Source: Candidatus Nanoarchaeia archaeon
Lineage (GTDB): Archaea; Nanobdellota; Nanobdellia; Woesearchaeales; JANQNE01
DNA length: 64,000 nt
Assembly (NCBI GenBank): GCA_028279725.1
Contig: JANQNE010000010.1
Location: 62,001-126,000 of the forward strand
Reading direction: 5' to 3'
The notes under the pieces are model-generated. The model saw nothing but the letters and a program-made list of their open reading frames with translations, made no database searches and was not told the origin of the DNA. Positions 51,340 through 63,254 of the stretch are shown here, piece after piece; within the stretch, counting starts at the first letter, position 1; each line of letters begins with the position of its first letter. A program made the position numbers and the translations under genes.

Positions 51340-52359
51340 TTATAGTATCTTGATTATAGCATCAGCAAAACCATTTATATCTTTCGGTTTTACTAGTATT
51401 CCTTCCTTGACAACCTCAGGGTGAGGTCCGATATCAAAAGCGACAACAGGCTTACCACAGGCCTGGGCTTCAACAACAGTCATATTGAATCCTTCCCATA
51501 ATGTTGCCGTTGTATAGACATTACATGCAGCATAATATTGAGGAAGATCTTCATCTGAGACAAAACCTGCAAATATTATAGATTCAGGATTTACTTTATT
51601 TGCAATTCTTTTCAATCTTTTAGCATACTCATCAAATGTTTCCTTACCAGCGATCAATAATTTAGCACTAGGGATTTTCTTAAGCACAAGATTGAATGAT
51701 TCTATCAAAAGATCAATCCCTTTGTGGGGGGATATCCTTCCGACATACAAACACACAGGATCATTTCCTAGTTTATATTTGACCCTTATCTTATCTCCAG
51801 AAACCCCCTTATGGAATCTTTCAACATCAATCTTATCATAGACTATACTGCTTTCAACTCCAGTCTCTTTCTTCAAAACTCCTCGCAGATATTTACTGAT
51901 AGAAACAGCTTCATCAGCATTCTTTACGCTTCTATTTGTCAAAAATCTAAATAATTTCATATATGTTTTCTCAACAAACCCGCTGAATAATTCAGGATCA
52001 GCTACACCATGGTTATGATATCTGTACTTCACACCAAATTTCTTCTTTGCATAAGCTCCGATAAGATTCATAGGATAAAGATGACTTATTACAAGATCAT
52101 AATCTTTCAGCATTTTTCCGTATTTTTTGATCTTAAATATATCGAAAAAGAAAAATATCCTGTATATCCTCTCCAGAAAAGAACTCTTAGGCATTCCGAT
52201 CTCAACTACATTTACCCCTTTTGAAGGCTGCATTCCGGCCTTTAGACAGAATATAGAAACTTCATTCCCTTCTTTAACCAGATCTCTTGCTTGAAGCTCA
52301 ACAACCCTATCTATCCCGCTGAATGCAGAGTATGTTGGAGTTAACAACGCAATCTTCAT
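51340..52359 (-). CDS. GT4 family glycosyltransferase
   Basis: A 339-aa GT-B-fold transferase: MKIALLTPTYSAFSGIDRVVELQARDLVKEG at the N-terminus, VCLYVGRISPHKGIDLLIESFNLV as donor domain start, LLIAGKETFDEYAKRL, and YTTATLWEGFNMTVVEAQACGKPVVAFDIGPHPEVV with the EX7E motif. The protein ends slightly early compared with many GT4 enzymes, just after FADAIIKIL. It overlaps the next upstream methyltransferase gene by 4 bp. Confidence 0.9.
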   Translation of the reverse strand: MKIALLTPTYSAFSGIDRVVELQARDLVKEGNEVSIFCLKAGMQPSKGVNVVEIGMPKSSFLERIYRIFFFFDIFKIKKYGKMLKDYDLVISHLYPMNLIGAYAKKKFGVKYRYHNHGVADPELFSGFVEKTYMKLFRFLTNRSVKNADEAVSISKYLRGVLKKETGVESSIVYDKIDVERFHKGVSGDKIRVKYKLGNDPVCLYVGRISPHKGIDLLIESFNLVLKKIPSAKLLIAGKETFDEYAKRLKRIANKVNPESIIFAGFVSDEDLPQYYAACNVYTTATLWEGFNMTVVEAQACGKPVVAFDIGPHPEVVKEGILVKPKDINGFADAIIKIL

Positions 52360-53093
52360 TTTTTACACCTTATGGATAATGTTTGTGAAAAAATACTAAG
52401 TGGGGTCGCAGTCAGTATCCTATCCATACAATTTATGATTTTATAAAATCTATTGAATATCTTTCCCATAAGTCTGCTTATCTTGTTGATCTGGCCAGGT
52501 ATTAGGAATTCTCTCTTTATTTTTATATCTTTAAACCCAGCCTTTTTTAGCTTATTTTTTACAGAACCATCATACAGCCTGTCATGATGGCCTATCTTCA
52601 TCATCCTTGCCATAAATTCATTGAACGAATATCTGTTAGGTAGGCTAAATATCAGATTAAGCCCGCCAGATTTTAAGATTCTATACATCTCTCTCAACAG
52701 ATCCTTATCATCATCCACATGCTCCATAAGGCCAAAACTGACTAAACAGTCTATACTGCCATCTTTATACTTTAGGTTTGTAACATCATCTGCCAGAAAA
52801 CTACACCCAAAATCCTTAAACCTTTCCCAGGTATCTCTTCTTTCAATATCAATTCCAGTTATATTTATATCAGGTCTAAGCATCTTAAGCAATGCAGTCG
52901 TATGTCCAACCCCGCACCCAACATCAAGAACAGTAGCACCTTTAGGTATAAGTCTTGCACATAACTTTAATCTTCTTTCAAATCTATAGCATGTAAGCTT
53001 GCTCCCTATGTGATAAGCCCTGGTTGGATCCTTTTTCCTATATTCCTCAAATATGCTCTGCACCTTTTTATTATCGTAGATCATTTTAAACAC
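52356..53093 (-). CDS. Class I SAM-dependent methyltransferase
   Basis: A 245-aa methyltransferase of the Methyltransf_11/25 type: ATVLDVGCGVGHTTALLKML (about 54-73), GIDIERRDTWERF, SFGLMEHVDDDKDLLREMYRILKSGGLNLIFSLPNRYSFN. An N-terminal helical part of about 50 residues may bind the acceptor, and a C-terminal hydrophobic stretch may touch the membrane. It overlaps GT4 genes on both sides, so it probably methylates the glycan they build. Confidence 0.88.
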   Translation of the reverse strand: MFKMIYDNKKVQSIFEEYRKKDPTRAYHIGSKLTCYRFERRLKLCARLIPKGATVLDVGCGVGHTTALLKMLRPDINITGIDIERRDTWERFKDFGCSFLADDVTNLKYKDGSIDCLVSFGLMEHVDDDKDLLREMYRILKSGGLNLIFSLPNRYSFNEFMARMMKIGHHDRLYDGSVKNKLKKAGFKDIKIKREFLIPGQINKISRLMGKIFNRFYKIINCMDRILTATPLSIFSQTLSIRCKK

Positions 53094-54217
53094 AATTTCT
53101 TATAAACTTTAAGATAATTCTCAACATTATCCTTCAACTCAAACTTCTTCAATTTACTTTTTATAAACTTCTTCCTATACGCCATCTCGACCCCTTCTGC
53201 AATCCCATCAGGACTCTTAACTTTGACCAAAACATGATTTCCACTCACAACTTCAGGCAATGAAGTAGTATTGCTTGCAACAACAGGCTTGCCCATAGCA
53301 CACGCTTCAGCAGCTGCAAAACCAAATCCTTCTGCCAATGAAGGAACTACAACACAGTCTGCAGCCTTAATATAAGCAGGCAGTTCTTTATAGGAAACAG
53401 GATCATGTAAAATAACATTATCCTCAACACCTAATCTTTTAATCAGCTTTTGTATCTCTTTATATTGTTTCAATGTGTTCTTATCTTTGCTCACAATAGC
53501 CAGTAATTTTGAATTCTTTACTTTATTAGAAATAATTGGAACTGCTTTTATCAGATACTCGAGACCCTTGCTTACTCCAGGCCTACCTGTAAATACATAT
53601 AAGAAATTCTTTTCAACACCTAACATCTTTCTTATCTTCTTTCCGTCATATTTTTTAGGATTCCAATGGCTGTAATCTACTCCATTATACACAACTTCCA
53701 CTTTTTCTTTCTTAACTCCAACCCCTAACAATTGTTTCTGGGTAGATTTAGATACACACACATACTTATCAAAATTAAGCATATAGATCATCCTTTCCAG
53801 AATATCATGGACCTTTCCGCTAAACCAACTCATTTCAGTAAGTTTATTCCATTTCTTGATCCATACTTCATGAATGGTTATCAAACTCTTCTTCCTAGTT
53901 AGCTTAGAAGCAACCCATGCAGGAAACGCTCCGTTAAATGTAGTTGTATGTATAAGATCAGCCTTCTTAGCCAACTTGACAACTTTTGGAATAGAAAGAA
54001 AAGTAAACCAATATCTACTATGAAAACAATTAATTCTATGTACTTTAACTCCGTTTATTATCTCAAATTGTTTTGTCCCTTTCAATCTATGCGTGACTAT
54101 ATTAACCTCATGACCTGATTTAGCCAAACCTTCACAAAGATTCCTAAAAACTACTTCAACCCCTCCGATATGAGGTATATAATTCTCTAATACAAATAAT
54201 ATCTTCATTTTATGCAC
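53081..54217 (-). CDS. GT4 family glycosyltransferase
   Basis: A 378-aa GT-B-fold transferase: MKILFVLENYIPHIGGVEVVFRNLCEGLAKSGHEVNIVTH, NFLYVFTGRPGVSKGLEYLIKAVP, VVVPSLAEGFGFAAAEACAMGKPVVASNTTSLPEVV (EX7E region). An alternative start three codons in (MKILF) agrees better with relatives. It overlaps the DMT gene upstream by 8 bp and the methyltransferase downstream by 13 bp, which implies tight translational coupling within this minus-strand operon. Confidence 0.92.
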   Translation of the reverse strand: MHKMKILFVLENYIPHIGGVEVVFRNLCEGLAKSGHEVNIVTHRLKGTKQFEIINGVKVHRINCFHSRYWFTFLSIPKVVKLAKKADLIHTTTFNGAFPAWVASKLTRKKSLITIHEVWIKKWNKLTEMSWFSGKVHDILERMIYMLNFDKYVCVSKSTQKQLLGVGVKKEKVEVVYNGVDYSHWNPKKYDGKKIRKMLGVEKNFLYVFTGRPGVSKGLEYLIKAVPIISNKVKNSKLLAIVSKDKNTLKQYKEIQKLIKRLGVEDNVILHDPVSYKELPAYIKAADCVVVPSLAEGFGFAAAEACAMGKPVVASNTTSLPEVVSGNHVLVKVKSPDGIAEGVEMAYRKKFIKSKLKKFELKDNVENYLKVYKKLCLK

Positions 54218-54563
54218 CTAGTCCAATTAATGAAACACCCATTGCTATTATAAGTATTCCTATCCACTTGGCAAGATTCATCCTTTCTTTCAGCAAAAAT
54301 ATAGAATATATGCAGACCCACACATAAGATAATCCGACCAAAGGATACAATACAGATAATTCTCCAAACTTCAATGCAGGAATAAACAAAACAGTACCAA
54401 CACCATATATCATCACACCAATTATGAGGAATTTATTCTTATATATTGTAGAAAAATCCTTCAACTTTATGCTGCTGGATCCTTTTTTCAGATAGATTGG
54501 TCCAAATCCTCCGATCAACCCAGCAATAACCACAAGTACAATTGCAAATAATTGAGTTTCCAT
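54210..54563 (-). CDS. Small four-TM DMT/EamA-type transporter subunit (ArnE/ArnF-like), second of a pair
   Basis: A 117-aa protein with four TM helices, each half about 55 residues: METQLFAIVLVVIAGLIGGFGPIYLKKG, then LIIGVMIYGVGTVLFIPALKFGELSVLYPLVGLSYVWVCIYSIFLLKERMNLAKWIGILIIAMGVSLIGLG. That is the SMR/EmrE layout without the EmrE-type intramembrane glutamate in helix 1. The start at 54563 is chosen because an earlier ATG would overlap the upstream gene by 40 bp and add a poor N-terminus. Its twin is just upstream. ArnE/ArnF pairs flip polyprenyl-phosphate sugars, and the glycan context supports that role. Confidence 0.8.
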   Translation of the reverse strand: METQLFAIVLVVIAGLIGGFGPIYLKKGSSSIKLKDFSTIYKNKFLIIGVMIYGVGTVLFIPALKFGELSVLYPLVGLSYVWVCIYSIFLLKERMNLAKWIGILIIAMGVSLIGLGA

Positions 54564-54564
54564 T

Positions 54565-54951
54565 TTATATAGCCTCAGTAAATTCACTGATTTTTTTATC
54601 CTCACTTCCTAAATTTATTACGATGATGCCTACTATTATCAAAAAAACACCGATCCATCTCAAAAAACTGATGGTTTCTCCAAAAAAATACATTGATCCT
54701 AGAGTCACCCATACAAAACTGGTCGTTATTATGGGATAAAGGACAGTTACATCCCCTCCGCGGAAAGCAACAATAAGCAATACAGCTCCCATCACATACA
54801 AGACAATTCCAAAGATCAGATTCCAGTTTGTTATTATTGAAATAAGATTTAGACCTAGTTTTTCTGCTCCTTTTTTATATAATATTTGAGCAGAAGAAGT
54901 AAATAATGTACATAATACAACTAAAGATACTGCCCATAACTTTGTTTTCAT
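54565..54951 (-). CDS. Small four-TM DMT/EamA-type transporter subunit (ArnE/ArnF-like), first of a pair
   Basis: A 128-aa protein, four TM helices: AVSLVVLCTLFTSSAQILYKKGAEKLG, IFGIVLYVMGAVLLIVAFRGGDVTVLYPIITTSFVWVTLGSMYFFGETISFLRWIGVFLIIVGIIVINLGS. The GxxxVLYP(L/I)...(F/Y)VWV motif is shared with the neighbouring subunit, so the two are paralogues. It ends 1 bp before the partner start, suggesting equimolar synthesis and a heterodimer. Proposed role is flipping of lipid-phosphate-linked sugar for outside GT-C enzymes; other small-molecule export cannot be excluded. Confidence 0.8.
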   Translation of the reverse strand: MKTKLWAVSLVVLCTLFTSSAQILYKKGAEKLGLNLISIITNWNLIFGIVLYVMGAVLLIVAFRGGDVTVLYPIITTSFVWVTLGSMYFFGETISFLRWIGVFLIIVGIIVINLGSEDKKISEFTEAI

Positions 54952-55024: not shown

Positions 55025-55354
55025 TTATTTTGCTCTTTTTATCGCAACTTCCCTGACTACTCTTTCTACTTTTTTCTGGGTCTTCCTAACAACCCCATAT
55101 GTATAAAAATTAGTAAATATCAGAAACATAAACCCAAGTATTATGAAAAAATCCATAGTCCTTGCGATATTAAGAGACTCTAGTATTGGATCAAGTATCC
55201 GTGGGATTAAAGTCACGATCAAAAATACAATCCATACAACACTCCAAAATCCTGTTTCATTAATAGTAAATTCTTTCCTCTTGAAATGTAAAAATGTTAA
55301 ATATAACATAAATAATCCAAATATAACACCTAATAGCTGTATTCCTAATATCAT
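55025..55354 (-). CDS. DUF2304 family membrane protein
   Basis: A 109-aa protein with three TM segments: ILGIQLLGVIFGLFMLYLTFLHFKRKEF, FWSVVWIVFLIVTLIPRILDPI, and DFFIILGFMFLIFTNFYTYGVVRKTQKKVE. The F.R.E...E..FW...W and LGI.R..D....LG....F patterns are those of DUF2304. This family regularly accompanies DPM1-like GT2 genes, as here, and probably forms a complex with the transferase. I chose the ATG at 55354 because GGAGGT lies 7 nt upstream; an ATG five codons earlier overlaps the GT2 gene. Its C-terminus is basic and cytoplasmic. Confidence 0.85.
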   Translation of the reverse strand: MILGIQLLGVIFGLFMLYLTFLHFKRKEFTINETGFWSVVWIVFLIVTLIPRILDPILESLNIARTMDFFIILGFMFLIFTNFYTYGVVRKTQKKVERVVREVAIKRAK

Positions 55355-56016
55355 CCTAATAACCTCCATTTAACCATATTAAAGACAATTTTAACACCAT
55401 CCAGAACAGTAGTCCCTTTATACCTGTCTGAGTATATCGTTTGGATTGGAATTTCTCTGTACTTCAAATTATTCTTGCCGACATTGGCTATCATCTCACT
55501 CTCCATACTATAGTCATTTGCATTCCATCTGATTCTTCTGTATGCCTTGGATGTAAAAGCCCTATATCCTGACTGAGTATCTTTAAGGTCAACACCATAT
55601 AATATCTTTGTAACAAAATTGATAAAATTATTCCCGAATTTCAGCACAAATGGCATATGTCCTGTAAATCTTCTATATCCAAAGACAATATCAACACCTT
55701 CAAGACTCTCGATAAAATTAGGAATCTCTTTTGGCTCATGCTGCCCATCTGCATCAATTACTATGATTGTTTTCGCTCCATTAAGTAGGGCATAATCACA
55801 GCCCGTCTTAAGTCCAGCACCTTTCCCAAGATTAACAACATGCCTCAAAACTTTTATCTTTTTTTGCAATCCAACATCATATGTATCATCTTTAGACCCA
55901 TCATCGACCAAGACAACATTCCTGCTGAATCTCTTAACTTCATCAATTACTTTTCCAACTCTTTTTTCCTCATTATATGCAGGTATAATCACCCAGACAT
56001 CTTTACTCAGTTTCAT
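55351..56016 (-). CDS. DPM1-like GT2 glycosyltransferase
   Basis: A 221-aa GT2 enzyme without TM segments: VWVIIPAYNEEKRVGKVIDEV, VVLVDDGSKDDT, GKGAGLKTGCDYAL, the metal-binding VIDADGQHEPKEI, KDTQSGYRAF and the late YREIPIQTIYSDRYKGTTVLDGVKI. It resembles AglJ and dolichol-phosphate mannose/glucose synthases, which attach a sugar to dolichyl phosphate. It overlaps aglB by 14 bp upstream and DUF2304 downstream, forming an AglB, GT2 and DUF2304 group. The membrane attachment is probably supplied by DUF2304. Confidence 0.9.
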   Translation of the reverse strand: MKLSKDVWVIIPAYNEEKRVGKVIDEVKRFSRNVVLVDDGSKDDTYDVGLQKKIKVLRHVVNLGKGAGLKTGCDYALLNGAKTIIVIDADGQHEPKEIPNFIESLEGVDIVFGYRRFTGHMPFVLKFGNNFINFVTKILYGVDLKDTQSGYRAFTSKAYRRIRWNANDYSMESEMIANVGKNNLKYREIPIQTIYSDRYKGTTVLDGVKIVFNMVKWRLLG

Positions 56017-59000
56017 TTGTTTCAGTTAAGTTTTCAACAATCTCTTCTTCAGCTTGTTCTTCTTTGAATTCTTCAATCTTCTTTTCTAATTCTTGTTTCT
56101 CTTTTGCAATCTCTAAAGCACTCTTCTTTCCAGTCAATTTTATGATATGATATCCGAAATCAGTCTCAACCATAACTGTTGATTTATTGACTTCTTCAAG
56201 AGCAAAAGCAGCTTTTTCAAACGCAGGAACCATCCTTCCTTTTCCAAACCAGCCAAGATCCCCTCCTCTTGGTCCAGATGGCCCGTCAGAATATTCAATT
56301 GCAAGCTCTTCAAAGTTAGTCTCATTGACTCTCTGAAGCAAATCATCAGCAATTACCTTTGCTTCTTCTTTAGTCCTGTTTGCAGTGCATCTCACATCTC
56401 CTTCTCCGCAGATAAGTATATGGCTAGCTCTTATCTCAGGCTCTCCAAGCAGTTCATCCATTATTATTGGATCTCCTTCATCCCAATCAACTTTCCAGAC
56501 ATATATGTCAACTCCAGTGATTCCTTGGTCATACTTGAATAGCTTGAAATATTTAGATCCATGCCCCTTGAAGAAGAAAAGTCTGGTAAATACAGAATCT
56601 GCTAACAACCCATCCATCAAGAAACTTCTATAATTTCCACCACCAGTAGGAACCAAAGCAGCAGCCATATCTCTTCCGTTCTGCATCTTTATGATATTTT
56701 CACTATACTCTTTCTTATTCAGTCCGTCAAGGTCAGCCCAGACAAAATATTTAGGATACATCTTTCCTTGAGCTGTATCAGCCCATGCTTCTCCATTCTC
56801 AAGATCAAAGTTCATCCCATGATTGCATTTTATTATTCCTTCTTCCTCACTACAGCTTACAAGATCTGAAGCATAGCTAGGCCACGGAGACACCCATTGG
56901 TCTGCCTTATTGTTCTTTATTTCATAAAAAGTGGTTTCTGCCTCTTCCTGTGACAGTCCAAATTCATCTTTAAGAATTCCTACACCTTCATCATAGTTCT
57001 TCTTTACAACATTTTGGTACATTGAAGCTCTCTTGAAATCCCAGCTTCCAAAATGGCCCCAAACTCCACTCTTCCTTATCATATCTTCAGAAGTTATGTA
57101 ATAGCTATCTATAAGATCATCACAGTGTGTAACTTCAAGAACACTTTCAACTTCATCTTCACTCAATCCTTCTCTTTCCAAGACTTCTTTTGCCTCATCT
57201 TTATCCAGAACGACGATCTCGTTCAATATATCTACTGCTCTTACAGTGTCTCCATCAAGGTATTCTTCTAACACATGAGGTGGTTTCTCTTGCCCACAAT
57301 TTAGCATCCTCAGTATACCTACAGCTAACTTCTCATCAGACACCAACAAGCTTTTACCGACCCAATGGATTCTTTCTCCTTGATCAGCTCCGTCAAAAGT
57401 AACCCTTCTCTCAGATATGGAATAGAACCAATGTCCGAAATCCCACCAGGAGGTTATTATAGCATCTTCACTTTCATCCCCAATAGCCTTAAGGCTGTTA
57501 TACCACGCATCATCCATGCTAGGCATCTCGTTCTTTGCAATTTTTTGCGTTTGACAAAGAAAACTTTTATCCCCTGACAAAGAACAGTTACTTATCTTCT
57601 CAGATTGAACTGGAACAGCTATAAAGAGCAAAACAACAAGTATGATAAAAATACTATTGGTCACGTTCTTATTAACATTAAATTCTTTTGCAAACCACCT
57701 GCTGGCATGCAGAAATAAAAAGCTAATACAGATACCAAAAGCAATAGCAAATCCAGGAACCATCAATATTGCAAATCTAACTCCTTTTGTAAATCCATAT
57801 GTTGTCCCCATAACCCATATGATGATGAAAATAGAATATTTAACATCAGAACTTTTTGATTTTATCAGCCCAACAGCAACAGGGAGGCCTAGAAGTAAGA
57901 TAAACAACAGAGGTCTGCTCAAGATATCTCTGCTTATATCTGACAGGATAATTATATTTTTTGAAGAAACCCCTATAATTAAAACAAGATAGTAAGCTGC
58001 AAAAGAAACAACATACGACCAATTAATTTTACCCATTTCATCTTTAAATGATATGATCAGGATCCCGATCAAAGCGATCATGAAGAAGATTATCCCGCCC
58101 ATTTGAGGTATGATATTTCCCAATGTAGTTTCATTAAACTCAGCGACTGTCGTCAAAACATTTGGCCATACTGTTGTAACAGCAACATCCTTAAGCACTA
58201 TAACACTCAAAGGACCCCTTAAGAAAGTCAAGAATGCATCAAATCCTTGAAATATCCCAACAAATAAGAACGATCCAACAAAAAACACCCCAGTAGACAT
58301 CAATAGGTTTTTCACTTGTGTAAAGCTTTCTTTTACCTTTGTATAATGCTTTCTAATCAATAGATAAATTAGGTAAACACCAAGTGTTGCAAGTATAAAA
58401 TCAAAAACATACCACCATCCTCCCCAGGTGATACTGTATAATCCAACAAAAATACCGCCAATTGATGCAAAAATACCCCTCTTCAGATTATCTTTAGATT
58501 CTATAGATAAAAATATCATCCAAGTAATCATTAACGGGAACAGTATGTTATATCCGTCAGTATCAGCAAAACCCGCAGGAGTCCTTCCCAATAAAGCACT
58601 GTTGGTCGCAACTATTATACCGGCAAACAGTCCAGCAAGATTTCCTCCCACTCTTTTTGCAATAAAGAAAGCAGGTATTATCGCCAATGTAACTATGACC
58701 AATGGAATAAAAAACATAACTCTCATCAGGCTTAAATCTTTATTAAAAACACTCAATACCTTATATGCCCAGGCTCCAACATAAGAATTAAATGGAATTG
58801 TAACAACTCTCATAGGCTCTCTTCCATTTCTCAATGAGAACGATTCTTTTCCATCAACAATCTCATCACCCATGAATCCATTATTAACATAATTCCTTGC
58901 ATGAGCATACCAGAAGTAAGGATCTATAGCAAGCAGATAAGTATGTCCGTTTTCATCCTGAAGTCCTGCCTTATACTGTTGAGACAGTTGTTTCTTTTGT

Positions 59001-59422
59001 TCCTTAAGAGATTCTCTGTCCTTCTCTAATGCATCCTCAAGTTGAGCAGCAATAAGAACATTCTTATTCTCATCAGGTAGATTTGGGTATTGTTGATTAA
59101 TTTGTGTTGATATTTGAGATCTGTAATAGTTTCCAATAGTACTGTCAGCCCATGTATCAGTCATAGGCAGGTAGACTGGTTGTATCCTGAAGAATACAGA
59201 TAATATTATCGGAATCAGCAAAAGAAGCCAAACCTTGTTCTTTGAGAAAAATCCGCTAACCTTGTTCCAGTCAACTTTTACTTCATCATCCTTATCTTCT
59301 TTTACAAAATTACTAGTCTTATGTCTTGATTTCTTTCCAAAACCCTTAAACCAGTTTTTGATCTTACCAAAATCGATAGATATCTCATCATCTTCTTCTC
59401 TATTTCCCACTTTTTCTACCAT
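56003..59422 (-). CDS. aglB: AglB/STT3 oligosaccharyltransferase with C-terminal parvulin domain
   Basis: A 1139-aa catalytic subunit that transfers lipid-linked glycans to Asn in N-x-S/T sequons outside the membrane. A charged cytoplasmic N-tail (about 1-60) is followed by 13 or so TM segments. The first-loop acidic motif is PMTDTWADS and the second is AIDPYFWYAHARN. The hallmark WWDFGHW lies at about 659-665. A globular region of about 330 residues follows, then an extra domain at about 996-1105: a parvulin/PpiC rotamase (RASHILI...YSDGPSGPRGGDLGWF...MVPAFEKAAF...FGYHIIKL). The acidic tail ends NLTETNETE, which itself holds sequons. The ATG at 59422 is chosen for its GGGGG site; an upstream TTG is in frame. 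Confidence 0.95.
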   Translation of the reverse strand: MVEKVGNREEDDEISIDFGKIKNWFKGFGKKSRHKTSNFVKEDKDDEVKVDWNKVSGFFSKNKVWLLLLIPIILSVFFRIQPVYLPMTDTWADSTIGNYYRSQISTQINQQYPNLPDENKNVLIAAQLEDALEKDRESLKEQKKQLSQQYKAGLQDENGHTYLLAIDPYFWYAHARNYVNNGFMGDEIVDGKESFSLRNGREPMRVVTIPFNSYVGAWAYKVLSVFNKDLSLMRVMFFIPLVIVTLAIIPAFFIAKRVGGNLAGLFAGIIVATNSALLGRTPAGFADTDGYNILFPLMITWMIFLSIESKDNLKRGIFASIGGIFVGLYSITWGGWWYVFDFILATLGVYLIYLLIRKHYTKVKESFTQVKNLLMSTGVFFVGSFLFVGIFQGFDAFLTFLRGPLSVIVLKDVAVTTVWPNVLTTVAEFNETTLGNIIPQMGGIIFFMIALIGILIISFKDEMGKINWSYVVSFAAYYLVLIIGVSSKNIIILSDISRDILSRPLLFILLLGLPVAVGLIKSKSSDVKYSIFIIIWVMGTTYGFTKGVRFAILMVPGFAIAFGICISFLFLHASRWFAKEFNVNKNVTNSIFIILVVLLFIAVPVQSEKISNCSLSGDKSFLCQTQKIAKNEMPSMDDAWYNSLKAIGDESEDAIITSWWDFGHWFYSISERRVTFDGADQGERIHWVGKSLLVSDEKLAVGILRMLNCGQEKPPHVLEEYLDGDTVRAVDILNEIVVLDKDEAKEVLEREGLSEDEVESVLEVTHCDDLIDSYYITSEDMIRKSGVWGHFGSWDFKRASMYQNVVKKNYDEGVGILKDEFGLSQEEAETTFYEIKNNKADQWVSPWPSYASDLVSCSEEEGIIKCNHGMNFDLENGEAWADTAQGKMYPKYFVWADLDGLNKKEYSENIIKMQNGRDMAAALVPTGGGNYRSFLMDGLLADSVFTRLFFFKGHGSKYFKLFKYDQGITGVDIYVWKVDWDEGDPIIMDELLGEPEIRASHILICGEGDVRCTANRTKEEAKVIADDLLQRVNETNFEELAIEYSDGPSGPRGGDLGWFGKGRMVPAFEKAAFALEEVNKSTVMVETDFGYHIIKLTGKKSALEIAKEKQELEKKIEEFKEEQAEEEIVENLTETNETE
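56120..56437 (-). other. Parvulin-type PPIase domain encoded within aglB
   Basis: This segment codes for about 105 residues with the parvulin landmarks: N-terminal ASHILI, the helix KEEAKVIADDLLQRV, FEELAIEYSDGPSGPRGGDLGWFGKGRMVPAFEKAAFAL, and the C-terminal TDFGYHIIKLTGK. The histidines of the ASHIL and GYHII strands, both typical of active PpiC/PrsA/Pin1-type sites, are present. The loop after ASHILI holds two cysteines (CGEGDVRC) that could form a disulphide, which suits an extracytoplasmic location. Confidence 0.88.
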
Positions 59423-59513
59423 TAACAACAACCCCCTGATAAATAGTGTATTAGTCGAGAAAAACTCCCTGGCTTTTTAAATATTTTGCTTTCTAAGAGT
59501 ATATTAAATCCCT

Positions 59514-60584
59514 TTACAAATTCTTCATAAAATATAGAAATCTCGGCTCTTTAAATGCCAATTTTAACAAAAATTTGAGTGGAAACTCCCTGTCTCCATC
59601 ATTCACAAAGTCCCTGACTTTCTTCTTTCCAACCAACCTAATCAAAAGCTCATAATCCTTATCACTGAATCTATTCAACACATTTCTAAGCCACAGATGG
59701 ATCTTCAGGTTCCTTCCAACTTTCTTCATAGATTCAGATCCATAATCCTTACCATTACTTACACAGTCAGCCAGCACTTCAGCTCCTCTAAAACCAGGCA
59801 CCAACCCTCCTCCCGTAGAGGCTTTCACCATACCTGCAGCATCCCCCACTAAATATACATTCTTGCCTTTATCACAGATCTTCATCTTCAGATCATAGAC
59901 AGGGATCAACCCACCCTGCTTCGACAGTATCTTGCTTTTTCCCACCCTTTTCTTAATAAATCTGTCAAAATACTGCTTTGTATTAGCTCCGCAGGCAACT
60001 CCAACCCTGCATATCTTGTCAGATTCAGGCACAACCCATCCAAAAAACTTAGGATAATCTCTGCCAAAATAAACTTCATAGGCATCACTTTCATTCTTCA
60101 TATTAACTCTAGCTTGCATGCCAAAATAGAACTTCTTATTGACCATTCCAGCACTCTTTCCGACGCCAGATAAAGGCCCATCAGCCCCGATTAAGAGCTC
60201 TTTTTCAGCCTTTTTTCCATTATGAAACATAACACTCTTATCATTAAATCCTTTAAATTTATGCCTTAGATTAACCCTTACACCTTCAGAAACAGCCATC
60301 TCTACAGTGTTTTTATCAAACTCTTCCCTGTCGATAACAAACTCCTTGACCTTAATTTCAGCACACTTCCCACTGGGTGCAAATACATTTACTTTTTCCA
60401 GTTTATTAACCAGAACATCATCTAATTTCATTATTTTACTAAGATGTTTTGTAACAATCCCAGTGCACTGTACAGGCTTACCTATTGTATGGTGCTCTTC
60501 AAATAAATCAACATTAAACCCAGCTCTGGCTAGCAGATATCCTGTATAAGCTCCAACTGGCCCCCCACCAATTATCGACACCAT
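59514..60584 (-). CDS. Geranylgeranyl reductase-family FAD-dependent oxidoreductase
   Basis: A 356-aa flavoprotein. The FAD-binding site is SIIGGGPVGAYTGYLLARAGFNVDLFEEHHTIGKPVQCTGIV (GxGxxG at about 6-11, plus the conserved CxGxV). Later VYLVGDAAGMVKASTGGGLVPGFRGAEVLADCV binds the FAD phosphates. Archaeal family members saturate geranylgeranyl chains of membrane lipids or dolichol. Adjacent to aglB, reduction of the dolichol carrier is a likely role, but lipid reduction cannot be excluded. The gene is transcribed alone, between the aglB operon and the surface-protein genes. Confidence 0.9.
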   Translation of the reverse strand: MVSIIGGGPVGAYTGYLLARAGFNVDLFEEHHTIGKPVQCTGIVTKHLSKIMKLDDVLVNKLEKVNVFAPSGKCAEIKVKEFVIDREEFDKNTVEMAVSEGVRVNLRHKFKGFNDKSVMFHNGKKAEKELLIGADGPLSGVGKSAGMVNKKFYFGMQARVNMKNESDAYEVYFGRDYPKFFGWVVPESDKICRVGVACGANTKQYFDRFIKKRVGKSKILSKQGGLIPVYDLKMKICDKGKNVYLVGDAAGMVKASTGGGLVPGFRGAEVLADCVSNGKDYGSESMKKVGRNLKIHLWLRNVLNRFSDKDYELLIRLVGKKKVRDFVNDGDREFPLKFLLKLAFKEPRFLYFMKNL

Positions 60585-62000: not shown

Positions 62001-63254
62001 TTAGTAGTAAGTTTGTCCAGCTTCCTCTGATTCGTCTTCAGCTCCTTTCAATCTGTTGAAGCCGATTATTAATCCTAGGATAACCAGTAAAACGACTAAA
62101 ACAACCAAGCCAACTTCTAGTCCTTTCTTAACTTTTGACCATCCGCTTGCTCCTTCGTTTACGTCAACTTTCAAAGTTATGTCCTGTTTCTTATCTCCAG
62201 CACTAACTTCTAGAGTTATTAACTGTTCTCCTGAAGCATCTTCTGAAGCAGTTGCATCAACTAGAACAACTTCCTCATCATCTCCATTCAAAACAATTAC
62301 TGGTTCATCAACTGAAACTTCGACACCGCTTCCAGCCTGAGCCTTAACAGTTACCTGCTTAGCATCAGCTCCCAAATTCTTGATTGTGATTGGGAATGAT
62401 GTCTGTCCTCCAGCATTAACAGATCTTGAACTTGCTGGAACAGTAACTCTTATACCACTAGCGATTGGTGTGCATGAATCTCCTTCTGTAACAGTCATCA
62501 AATCTGATGTTGTTTCTGTCTCATAGCCTTCATCATATGATAGTTCAGTAACAACTTCATATGTTCCAACTGCGACACATTTAGGAACTCTCATGTACAG
62601 CTCTTCTGTAGTTGTAGTCTCTTCGCTTTCTAGCTCATCGATATAATCAGTAGCTGCAATTCCTAGACTTGGAACGCTCATTCTAACCTTGATTCCTTGC
62701 TCATCTTTTTCACCAGTGTTCTTTATTCTAACAACACCGATCAAAGCTCTTCCAGCCTGAACAGCACTTTCTGGGCTAAGAACAACATCTTTTATCTGCA
62801 GTTCGTGTCTCTTAGTTCCAACTTTCAAAAAGTAGTCAGAAACTGTGATTGGATCGTCGTTATCTGCAAAGAATAGCCTTAGTCTGTAAAGCTCTCTGTC
62901 TAGCCTGTCTGGCAAGTTTATCTTTAGTGTTTTAACGTATGTTATTCCTGCTTCTACATCGAAAACGTGTGAACTAGCTGCTAGCGGTTCTTTATCCTTA
63001 TATTCATAACCTGCTATAAATGCATTTAGCTCGACGTTTGTATCGTCAGCAGTTGCTTCGAATCTAACCTTGATCTCTACTTCTTCTCCTCTGTCTATAT
63101 CAAGGGTATCTCCTCCATTAGCGTCTACTTCTTCTCCATTTATCTTAACAGAGTCAACAGCAACGCTTACAGCGCTAACAGCACTTGAAATAGCCATAAT
63201 TCCGACTAGGAAAAGCGCTAAAACGCTCAATACTCTAAATTTGTTTGATTTCAT
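62001..63254 (-). CDS. Abundant-type surface protein with COG1361/CARDB-like repeats
   Basis: A 417-aa secreted protein anchored at its C-terminus. A signal peptide (about 1-29, VLSVLALFLVGIMAISSAVSA) is followed by three beta-sandwich modules: about 30-145 (VKINGEEVDANGGDTLDIDRGEEVEIKVRFEA), about 150-265 (LSPESAVQAGRALIGVVRIKNTGEKDEQGIKVRMSVP) and about 268-365 (SSRSVNAGGQTSFPITIKNLGADAKQVTVKA). A TM helix (about 372-397) and a short tail ending QTYY complete it. It has few lysine runs and uses a GGAGGG ribosome site, its own promoter and a strong terminator, all consistent with high expression. An S-layer-associated role is inferred. Confidence 0.78.
   Translation of the reverse strand: MKSNKFRVLSVLALFLVGIMAISSAVSAVSVAVDSVKINGEEVDANGGDTLDIDRGEEVEIKVRFEATADDTNVELNAFIAGYEYKDKEPLAASSHVFDVEAGITYVKTLKINLPDRLDRELYRLRLFFADNDDPITVSDYFLKVGTKRHELQIKDVVLSPESAVQAGRALIGVVRIKNTGEKDEQGIKVRMSVPSLGIAATDYIDELESEETTTTEELYMRVPKCVAVGTYEVVTELSYDEGYETETTSDLMTVTEGDSCTPIASGIRVTVPASSRSVNAGGQTSFPITIKNLGADAKQVTVKAQAGSGVEVSVDEPVIVLNGDDEEVVLVDATASEDASGEQLITLEVSAGDKKQDITLKVDVNEGASGWSKVKKGLEVGLVVLVVLLVILGLIIGFNRLKGAEDESEEAGQTYY

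Follow-up and report, generated by a model that had tools for sequence, protein, structure and literature searches.

The 64,000-nucleotide stretch analysed here (the window; positions 62,001 to 126,000 of contig JANQNE010000010.1, assembly GCA_028279725.1), from a Candidatus Nanoarchaeia archaeon of the order Woesearchaeales, encodes an AglB oligosaccharyltransferase (OST) whose single polypeptide chain continues, beyond its globular domain, into a parvulin-type peptidyl-prolyl isomerase (PPIase) domain. Such fusions are a recurrent trait of one archaeal order, not of one genome, and the same slot of AglB holds three unrelated PPIase folds and, once, a thioredoxin fold; both observations go beyond the preliminary description of this DNA, which was made from the letters alone. 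With a probability of roughly 0.6, the protein would be a working archaeal OST with a tethered prolyl isomerase that acts on the newly exported, unfolded acceptor chain at the OST.

An AglB core and a parvulin domain in one chain

The frame is free of stops along its whole length, 56003-59431 on the minus strand, and an ATG at 59422 gives a product of 1139 amino acids; a TTG at 59431, nine bases 5' of the ATG, is a possible alternative start and would yield a form of 1142. Pfam recognises both partners in this chain: STT3 (PF02516; 7.4e-36, 124.9 bits against a cut-off of 24.5), Rotamase_3 (PF13616; 1.4e-26) and Rotamase (PF00639; 6.7e-20), the latter two likewise above cut-off. The NCBIfam models for archaeal STT3 and for PrsA/PpiC match as well, both below their whole-protein cut-offs, which is expected because the protein is a chimera. 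Taken alone, the tail matches 67 PDB sequences at E ≤ 0.001, with PrsA at the top (1.5e-15). Neither SurA_N, the N-terminal chaperone domain of SurA and PrsA, nor a thioredoxin-like CxxC domain gave a Pfam match in the fused chain.

The OST motifs TDTWAD (residue 88), DPY (167), TVAE (425), WWDFGHW (659-665) and DMIRK (780) are all present, most of their positions being invariant columns in the AglB alignment (A2), and the parvulin carries RASHIL (998), GGDLGWF (1053) and GYHIIK (1090). Its H1001 and H1092 are the equivalents of Pin1 H59 and H157; equivalents of M130 and F134 are present too, making up two histidines and a hydrophobic proline pocket. The AlphaFold model has a mean predicted local distance difference test score (pLDDT) of 86.3 and a predicted template modelling score of 0.81, with parvulin blocks at about 82-94; residues 1-50 are disordered. 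In Foldseek searches the model finds solved OSTs (6gxc, 1.7e-18; Archaeoglobus fulgidus AglB 7e9s, 1.4e-12), the globular domain sharing its fold with PglB, AglB and human STT3A, and the tail finds PrsA (6xd8, template modelling score 0.80) and Pin1 (0.79-0.81), scored on the target.

The preliminary description had placed a parvulin, with its key histidines and GGDLGWF segment, behind the globular domain of an AglB that retains WWDFGHW, and had pointed to sequons in the tail and the rotamase domain. Profiles, model and domain borders (Table 1) bear this out, and the N-x-S/T sequons number five in the last 125 residues and four across the preceding 1014. It had also raised a frameshift or a join of two genes near 56437 as what would undo the fusion; at the junction of core and parvulin we see neither frameshift nor stop, and the tail uses synonymous codons as the rest of the gene does, continuously across the junction. 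Dozens of genomes, in separate assemblies, show the same junction, and since the architecture recurs with a parvulin in 25 other genomes of the order and with a different PPIase fold in 41, it is neither an assembly join nor chance. The intact frame and this recurrence exclude an assembly join or frameshift, and the idea that annotation or assembly artificially joined two neighbouring genes retains a negligible probability.

C-terminal prolyl isomerases across Woesearchaeales

The preliminary description had proposed a survey of AglB homologues for C-terminal PPIase domains. Contigs from one genome per species provided 80 AglB loci, nearly all labelled Woesearchaeota or Nanoarchaeota, 13 of which carry a terminal parvulin. 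Reading of the remaining tails revealed three with an FKBP, one with a cyclophilin and another with a thioredoxin-like CGHC domain, with Pfam matches for the FKBPs (FKBP_C, 1e-15 to 6e-22) and the cyclophilin (Pro_isomerase, 7e-50). An order-wide survey of 353 Woesearchaeales genomes, in which counts are lower bounds, showed parvulin matches within AglB frames in at least 26 genomes from 10 families and, by a chimeric profile of AglB end plus FKBP, at least 40 AglB-FKBP fusions in 11 families; AglB-cyclophilin occurs in one genome among the matches listed. All added domains share one C-terminal position of AglB, and the survey excludes a one-genome oddity. When the class was sampled evenly, with about 210 genomes from its other orders, no parvulin or FKBP fusion appeared outside Woesearchaeales, the survey reaching as far as the class, with phyla further out not sampled.

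The choice of partner is specific for AglB: all 25 listed parvulin open reading frames (ORFs) of at least 650 amino acids in the order are AglB, every other listed one has at most 639, and the one cyclophilin ORF above 450 amino acids among the matches listed is again AglB. The fused enzyme is the main, usually the only, OST of its genome; among the 20 fused genomes checked, the fused frame always gave the best STT3 match, and in 16 it was the sole STT3. Woesearchaeales also encode PrsA/SurA-like parvulins that are free and secreted, and FKBPs resembling lipoproteins. In the AglB loci no free PPIase gene was seen beside an unfused aglB; a weak FKBP-like ORF adjoins the fused locus L011. At L127 (G225:C17) AglB-FKBP is spread over two overlapping frames of 806 and 348 amino acids, a frameshift or sequencing error. 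Two contigs labelled Aminicenantes bacterium (L041, L046) carry a woesearchaeal-type AglB, with binning contamination the likely cause.

Linkers, measured between the conserved WKVDW with which the AglB core closes and the PPIase domain, have a median of 13 residues in parvulin fusions (22 of 25 within 10-19) and 21 in FKBP fusions (33 of 36 within 17-24). Active sites, numbered on reference sequences (including Pin1), are nearly invariant: in 25 parvulin fusions H59, L122, F134 and H157 are invariant and M130 is kept in 24, the C113 position being D or G, while the 40 FKBP fusions all have Y26 and F99, with D37 in 39 and Y82 in 38. The model of one FKBP fusion (L047; pLDDT 84) has a tail that matches FKBP13/FKBP2 and FKBP12.

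The thioredoxin-like domain belongs to L038 (5310-5885, plus strand; G079), where AglB is followed by a long low-complexity linker and then the CGHC domain, which resembles those of VKOR-type proteins and for which Pfam gave no match. It is the sole case among the matches listed for the 353 genomes, and with one found, thioredoxin fusions were rejected as a common form. Elsewhere in the order, ORFs of 446-587 amino acids have adjacent parvulin and thioredoxin-like matches, apparently in one frame (G327:C1, about 247878-248618; G328:C7, about 79276-80019; G083:C18; G231:C65; G344:C138), and could possibly be combined prolyl isomerase/disulfide foldases. A further thioredoxin-like match (G219:C1:107732-107974) lies within an open frame of 1432 amino acids.

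The distribution of the domains does not follow a single inheritance. On trees of the AglB core the parvulin label changes 10-12 times, with at least seven changes forced by well-supported branches, and the FKBP label 7-8 times, with at least six forced. Approximately unbiased tests on the core tree reject one clade of carriers for either fold (FKBP, p = 2e-05; parvulin, p = 7e-05), and with it a single inherited fusion; the domains must therefore have been repeatedly gained, lost or exchanged. Within one 20-row clade (support 99) the window protein groups with an FKBP fusion (L020), and the AglB tail of another member (L012; 2597-2836, plus strand) retains just the first parvulin strand, IRASHILI, likely as an eroded parvulin copy. 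The domain trees, which have 98-101 columns and few free sequences, unite all 40 fused FKBPs against seven free ones (support 93) and 22 of 26 fused parvulins (support 95); the window parvulin falls outside this main group, adjoining a PrsA-like parvulin in a weak placement (support 84). Many independent captures per fold are accordingly unsupported for FKBP, which forms a single group, and only partly supported for parvulin, an equally possible alternative being that domains were lost and passed between aglB genes. The three PPIase folds and the one thioredoxin fold were evidently captured separately, with later loss, and PPIase domains were probably exchanged later between aglB genes.

In the source genome (1.42 Mb, 12 contigs) the fused AglB is the one STT3 copy. 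By the matches of its neighbours, its gene lies within a run of predicted glycosylation genes (Table 1); a scan for sigma-70 promoters and terminators gave no signal above chance.

Table 1. Features of the fused aglB gene and its surroundings in the window
Feature	Position	Strand	Evidence
AglB/STT3 OST with C-terminal parvulin domain	56003..59422	-	Open frame, both Pfam domains in one chain, structure model
N-terminal multi-pass membrane (GT-C) part, residues 1-610	57593..59422	-	PF02516 at 158-605 on the 1142-aa form; model helices; TDTWAD, DPY, TVAE
C-terminal globular (acceptor-binding) domain, residues 611-980, last residues IYVWKVDW	56483..57592	-	WWDFGHW, DMIRK; fold like PglB/AglB/STT3A
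Linker, residues 981-994 (DEGDPIIMDELLGE), 14 residues	56441..56482	-	Median 13 in 25 parvulin fusions
Parvulin/PpiC domain, residues 995-1100	56123..56440	-	Pfam, PDB sequences, Foldseek to PrsA, active-site conservation
C-terminal helical, acidic tail, residues 1101-1139, sequons NLT and NET	56006..56122	-	Model helix 1102-1134; sequons
Glycosyltransferase family 2 (GT2) protein, 14-base overlap with aglB end	55351..56016	-	Glycos_transf_2, 2.6e-22
DUF2304 protein, same gene run	55025..55369	-	1.4e-19
Two GT4 glycosyltransferases, methyltransferase, two EamA-type small transporters, neighbours of aglB	51340..54951	-	
Geranylgeranyl-reductase-like flavoprotein, upstream of aglB	59514..60584	-	Weak Pfam matches including GGR_cat, 8.9e-5

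What the tethered domain may do

By its established topology, AglB exposes its globular domain at the outer membrane face. Relative to shuffles of the same segments, N-x-S/T sequons are enriched in the parvulin domains (22 versus 9.8), the FKBP domains (92 versus 28) and the tails of unfused AglBs (122 versus 39) and depleted in the AglB membrane part (214 versus 441), related sequences being counted repeatedly, which inflates the enrichment. The pattern fits extracytoplasmic tails that may themselves be glycosylated, and from it and the topology of AglB we infer that the PPIase domain is extracytoplasmic. Unfused AglBs of the order (for example L030, L048, L016 and L042) often end in acidic, Asn/Thr-rich tails, in which sequons are about three times as frequent as in shuffles and self-glycosylation is possible.

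With linkers of 13-21 residues, the PPIase domain should sit near the acceptor site, where the globular domain of AglB helps to keep the acceptor peptide extended (PMC8342417). Permanently tethered beside this site on the outer membrane face, it would bind the still-unfolded exported chain and speed cis/trans interconversion of its prolines, keeping sequon-flanking segments extended and movable for glycosylation, and it might then assist folding of the glycosylated chain. On this reading the domain would be catalytically active and affect glycosylation or folding. As the three folds that share one slot are not homologous, what they have in common is an activity or a type of ligand, not descent, and that unrelated prolyl isomerases were used again and again, with their catalytic residues intact, would favour isomerisation or the handling of unfolded chains at the glycosylation site.

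Several points weigh against a tethered isomerase of this kind. AglB is without a PPIase in most genomes of the order and in the other sampled orders, so the module is dispensable; the repeated counting of related sequences weakens the sequon argument; and the conserved active sites could serve binding instead of isomerisation. FKBP11, which binds the human OST-A translocon, has been argued to work as an adaptor, its catalytic site being buried, and not as an isomerase (PMC12804085), a precedent for a docking module whose PPIase fold would recruit substrate or a translocon partner without catalysis, and PPIases generally bind partners via their active-site cleft. Yet the catalytic residues are almost fully conserved in both large classes, and three folds would have to retain one partner, which makes such docking rather improbable.

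AglB could also be a mere membrane anchor, abundant and near the Sec exit, for a general foldase serving all exported proteins. The order generally uses extracytoplasmic PPIases, both the free parvulins and the lipoprotein-like FKBPs, but other large membrane proteins would be equally usable and AglB accounts for every long parvulin ORF listed; moreover, the linkers are short and similar in length, and the source genome already has one other parvulin, an anchored SurA/PrsA-like protein of 346 amino acids that carries SurA_N. We consider a general foldase unlikely. That the PPIase acts on AglB itself, on its own folding or on the opening of the mobile acceptor loop, would agree with the position in cis and the short linker, but most relatives conserve the same core without the domain, and we give this idea very little weight.

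Significance and relation to known systems

The preliminary description was aware of no earlier report of this architecture, and in the open-access, open-licence literature we too found no description of AglB or STT3 with a parvulin, FKBP or prolyl isomerase; its novelty is provisional. Archaeal OSTs are usually regarded as lone catalytic subunits. The fusion would add a folding function to them, and its occurrence with three unrelated folds suggests that Woesearchaeales deal jointly with glycan attachment and the folding of the chain. More tentatively, and with slightly less than even odds, we propose that woesearchaeal OSTs combine glycosylation and folding in a single-chain machine whose C-terminal slot accepts exchangeable folding catalysts, and that the repeated acquisition of parvulin, FKBP, cyclophilin and thioredoxin domains would show prolyl isomerisation and chain handling to limit archaeal N-glycosylation. 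If true, such machines would be the prokaryotic equivalent, in cis, of the accessory subunits that eukaryotic OSTs use. How folding is coordinated with the N-glycosylation of exported chains is an open question, and the eukaryotic helpers, separate subunits of a large complex, are difficult to dissect; an OST covalently joined to a prolyl isomerase makes the coupling testable in one polypeptide, by point mutants and domain swaps. The fusions would also be natural constructs for glycoprotein production.

Finally, we would place the window protein beside its relatives. It is like AglB, STT3 and PglB (GT66, PF02516) in catalytic core, WWDFG motif and fold, but solved members of that family stop at the globular domain, to which the window protein adds a PPIase domain. 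Its tail is like the PrsA/PpiC/Pin1 parvulins (PF00639, PF13616) in domain sequence, fold and both histidines; unlike them it is not a separate foldase, is without the SurA/PrsA chaperone domain and forms a covalent part of an OST. MAGT1 and TUSC3 (Ost3/Ost6) are likewise a folding-related module at the OST that acts on the acceptor chain, which they hold so that sequons remain accessible (PMC7563561). They have a thioredoxin fold on a separate subunit, whereas woesearchaeal AglBs carry PPIase folds in cis; the thioredoxin-like domain of L038 is their cis parallel. FKBP11 at the human OST-A translocon is again a protein of PPIase fold, positioned at the exit site next to the OST, but it differs in being a separate transmembrane protein, recruited together with the ribosome and proposed to act as an adaptor whose catalytic site is buried (PMC12804085).

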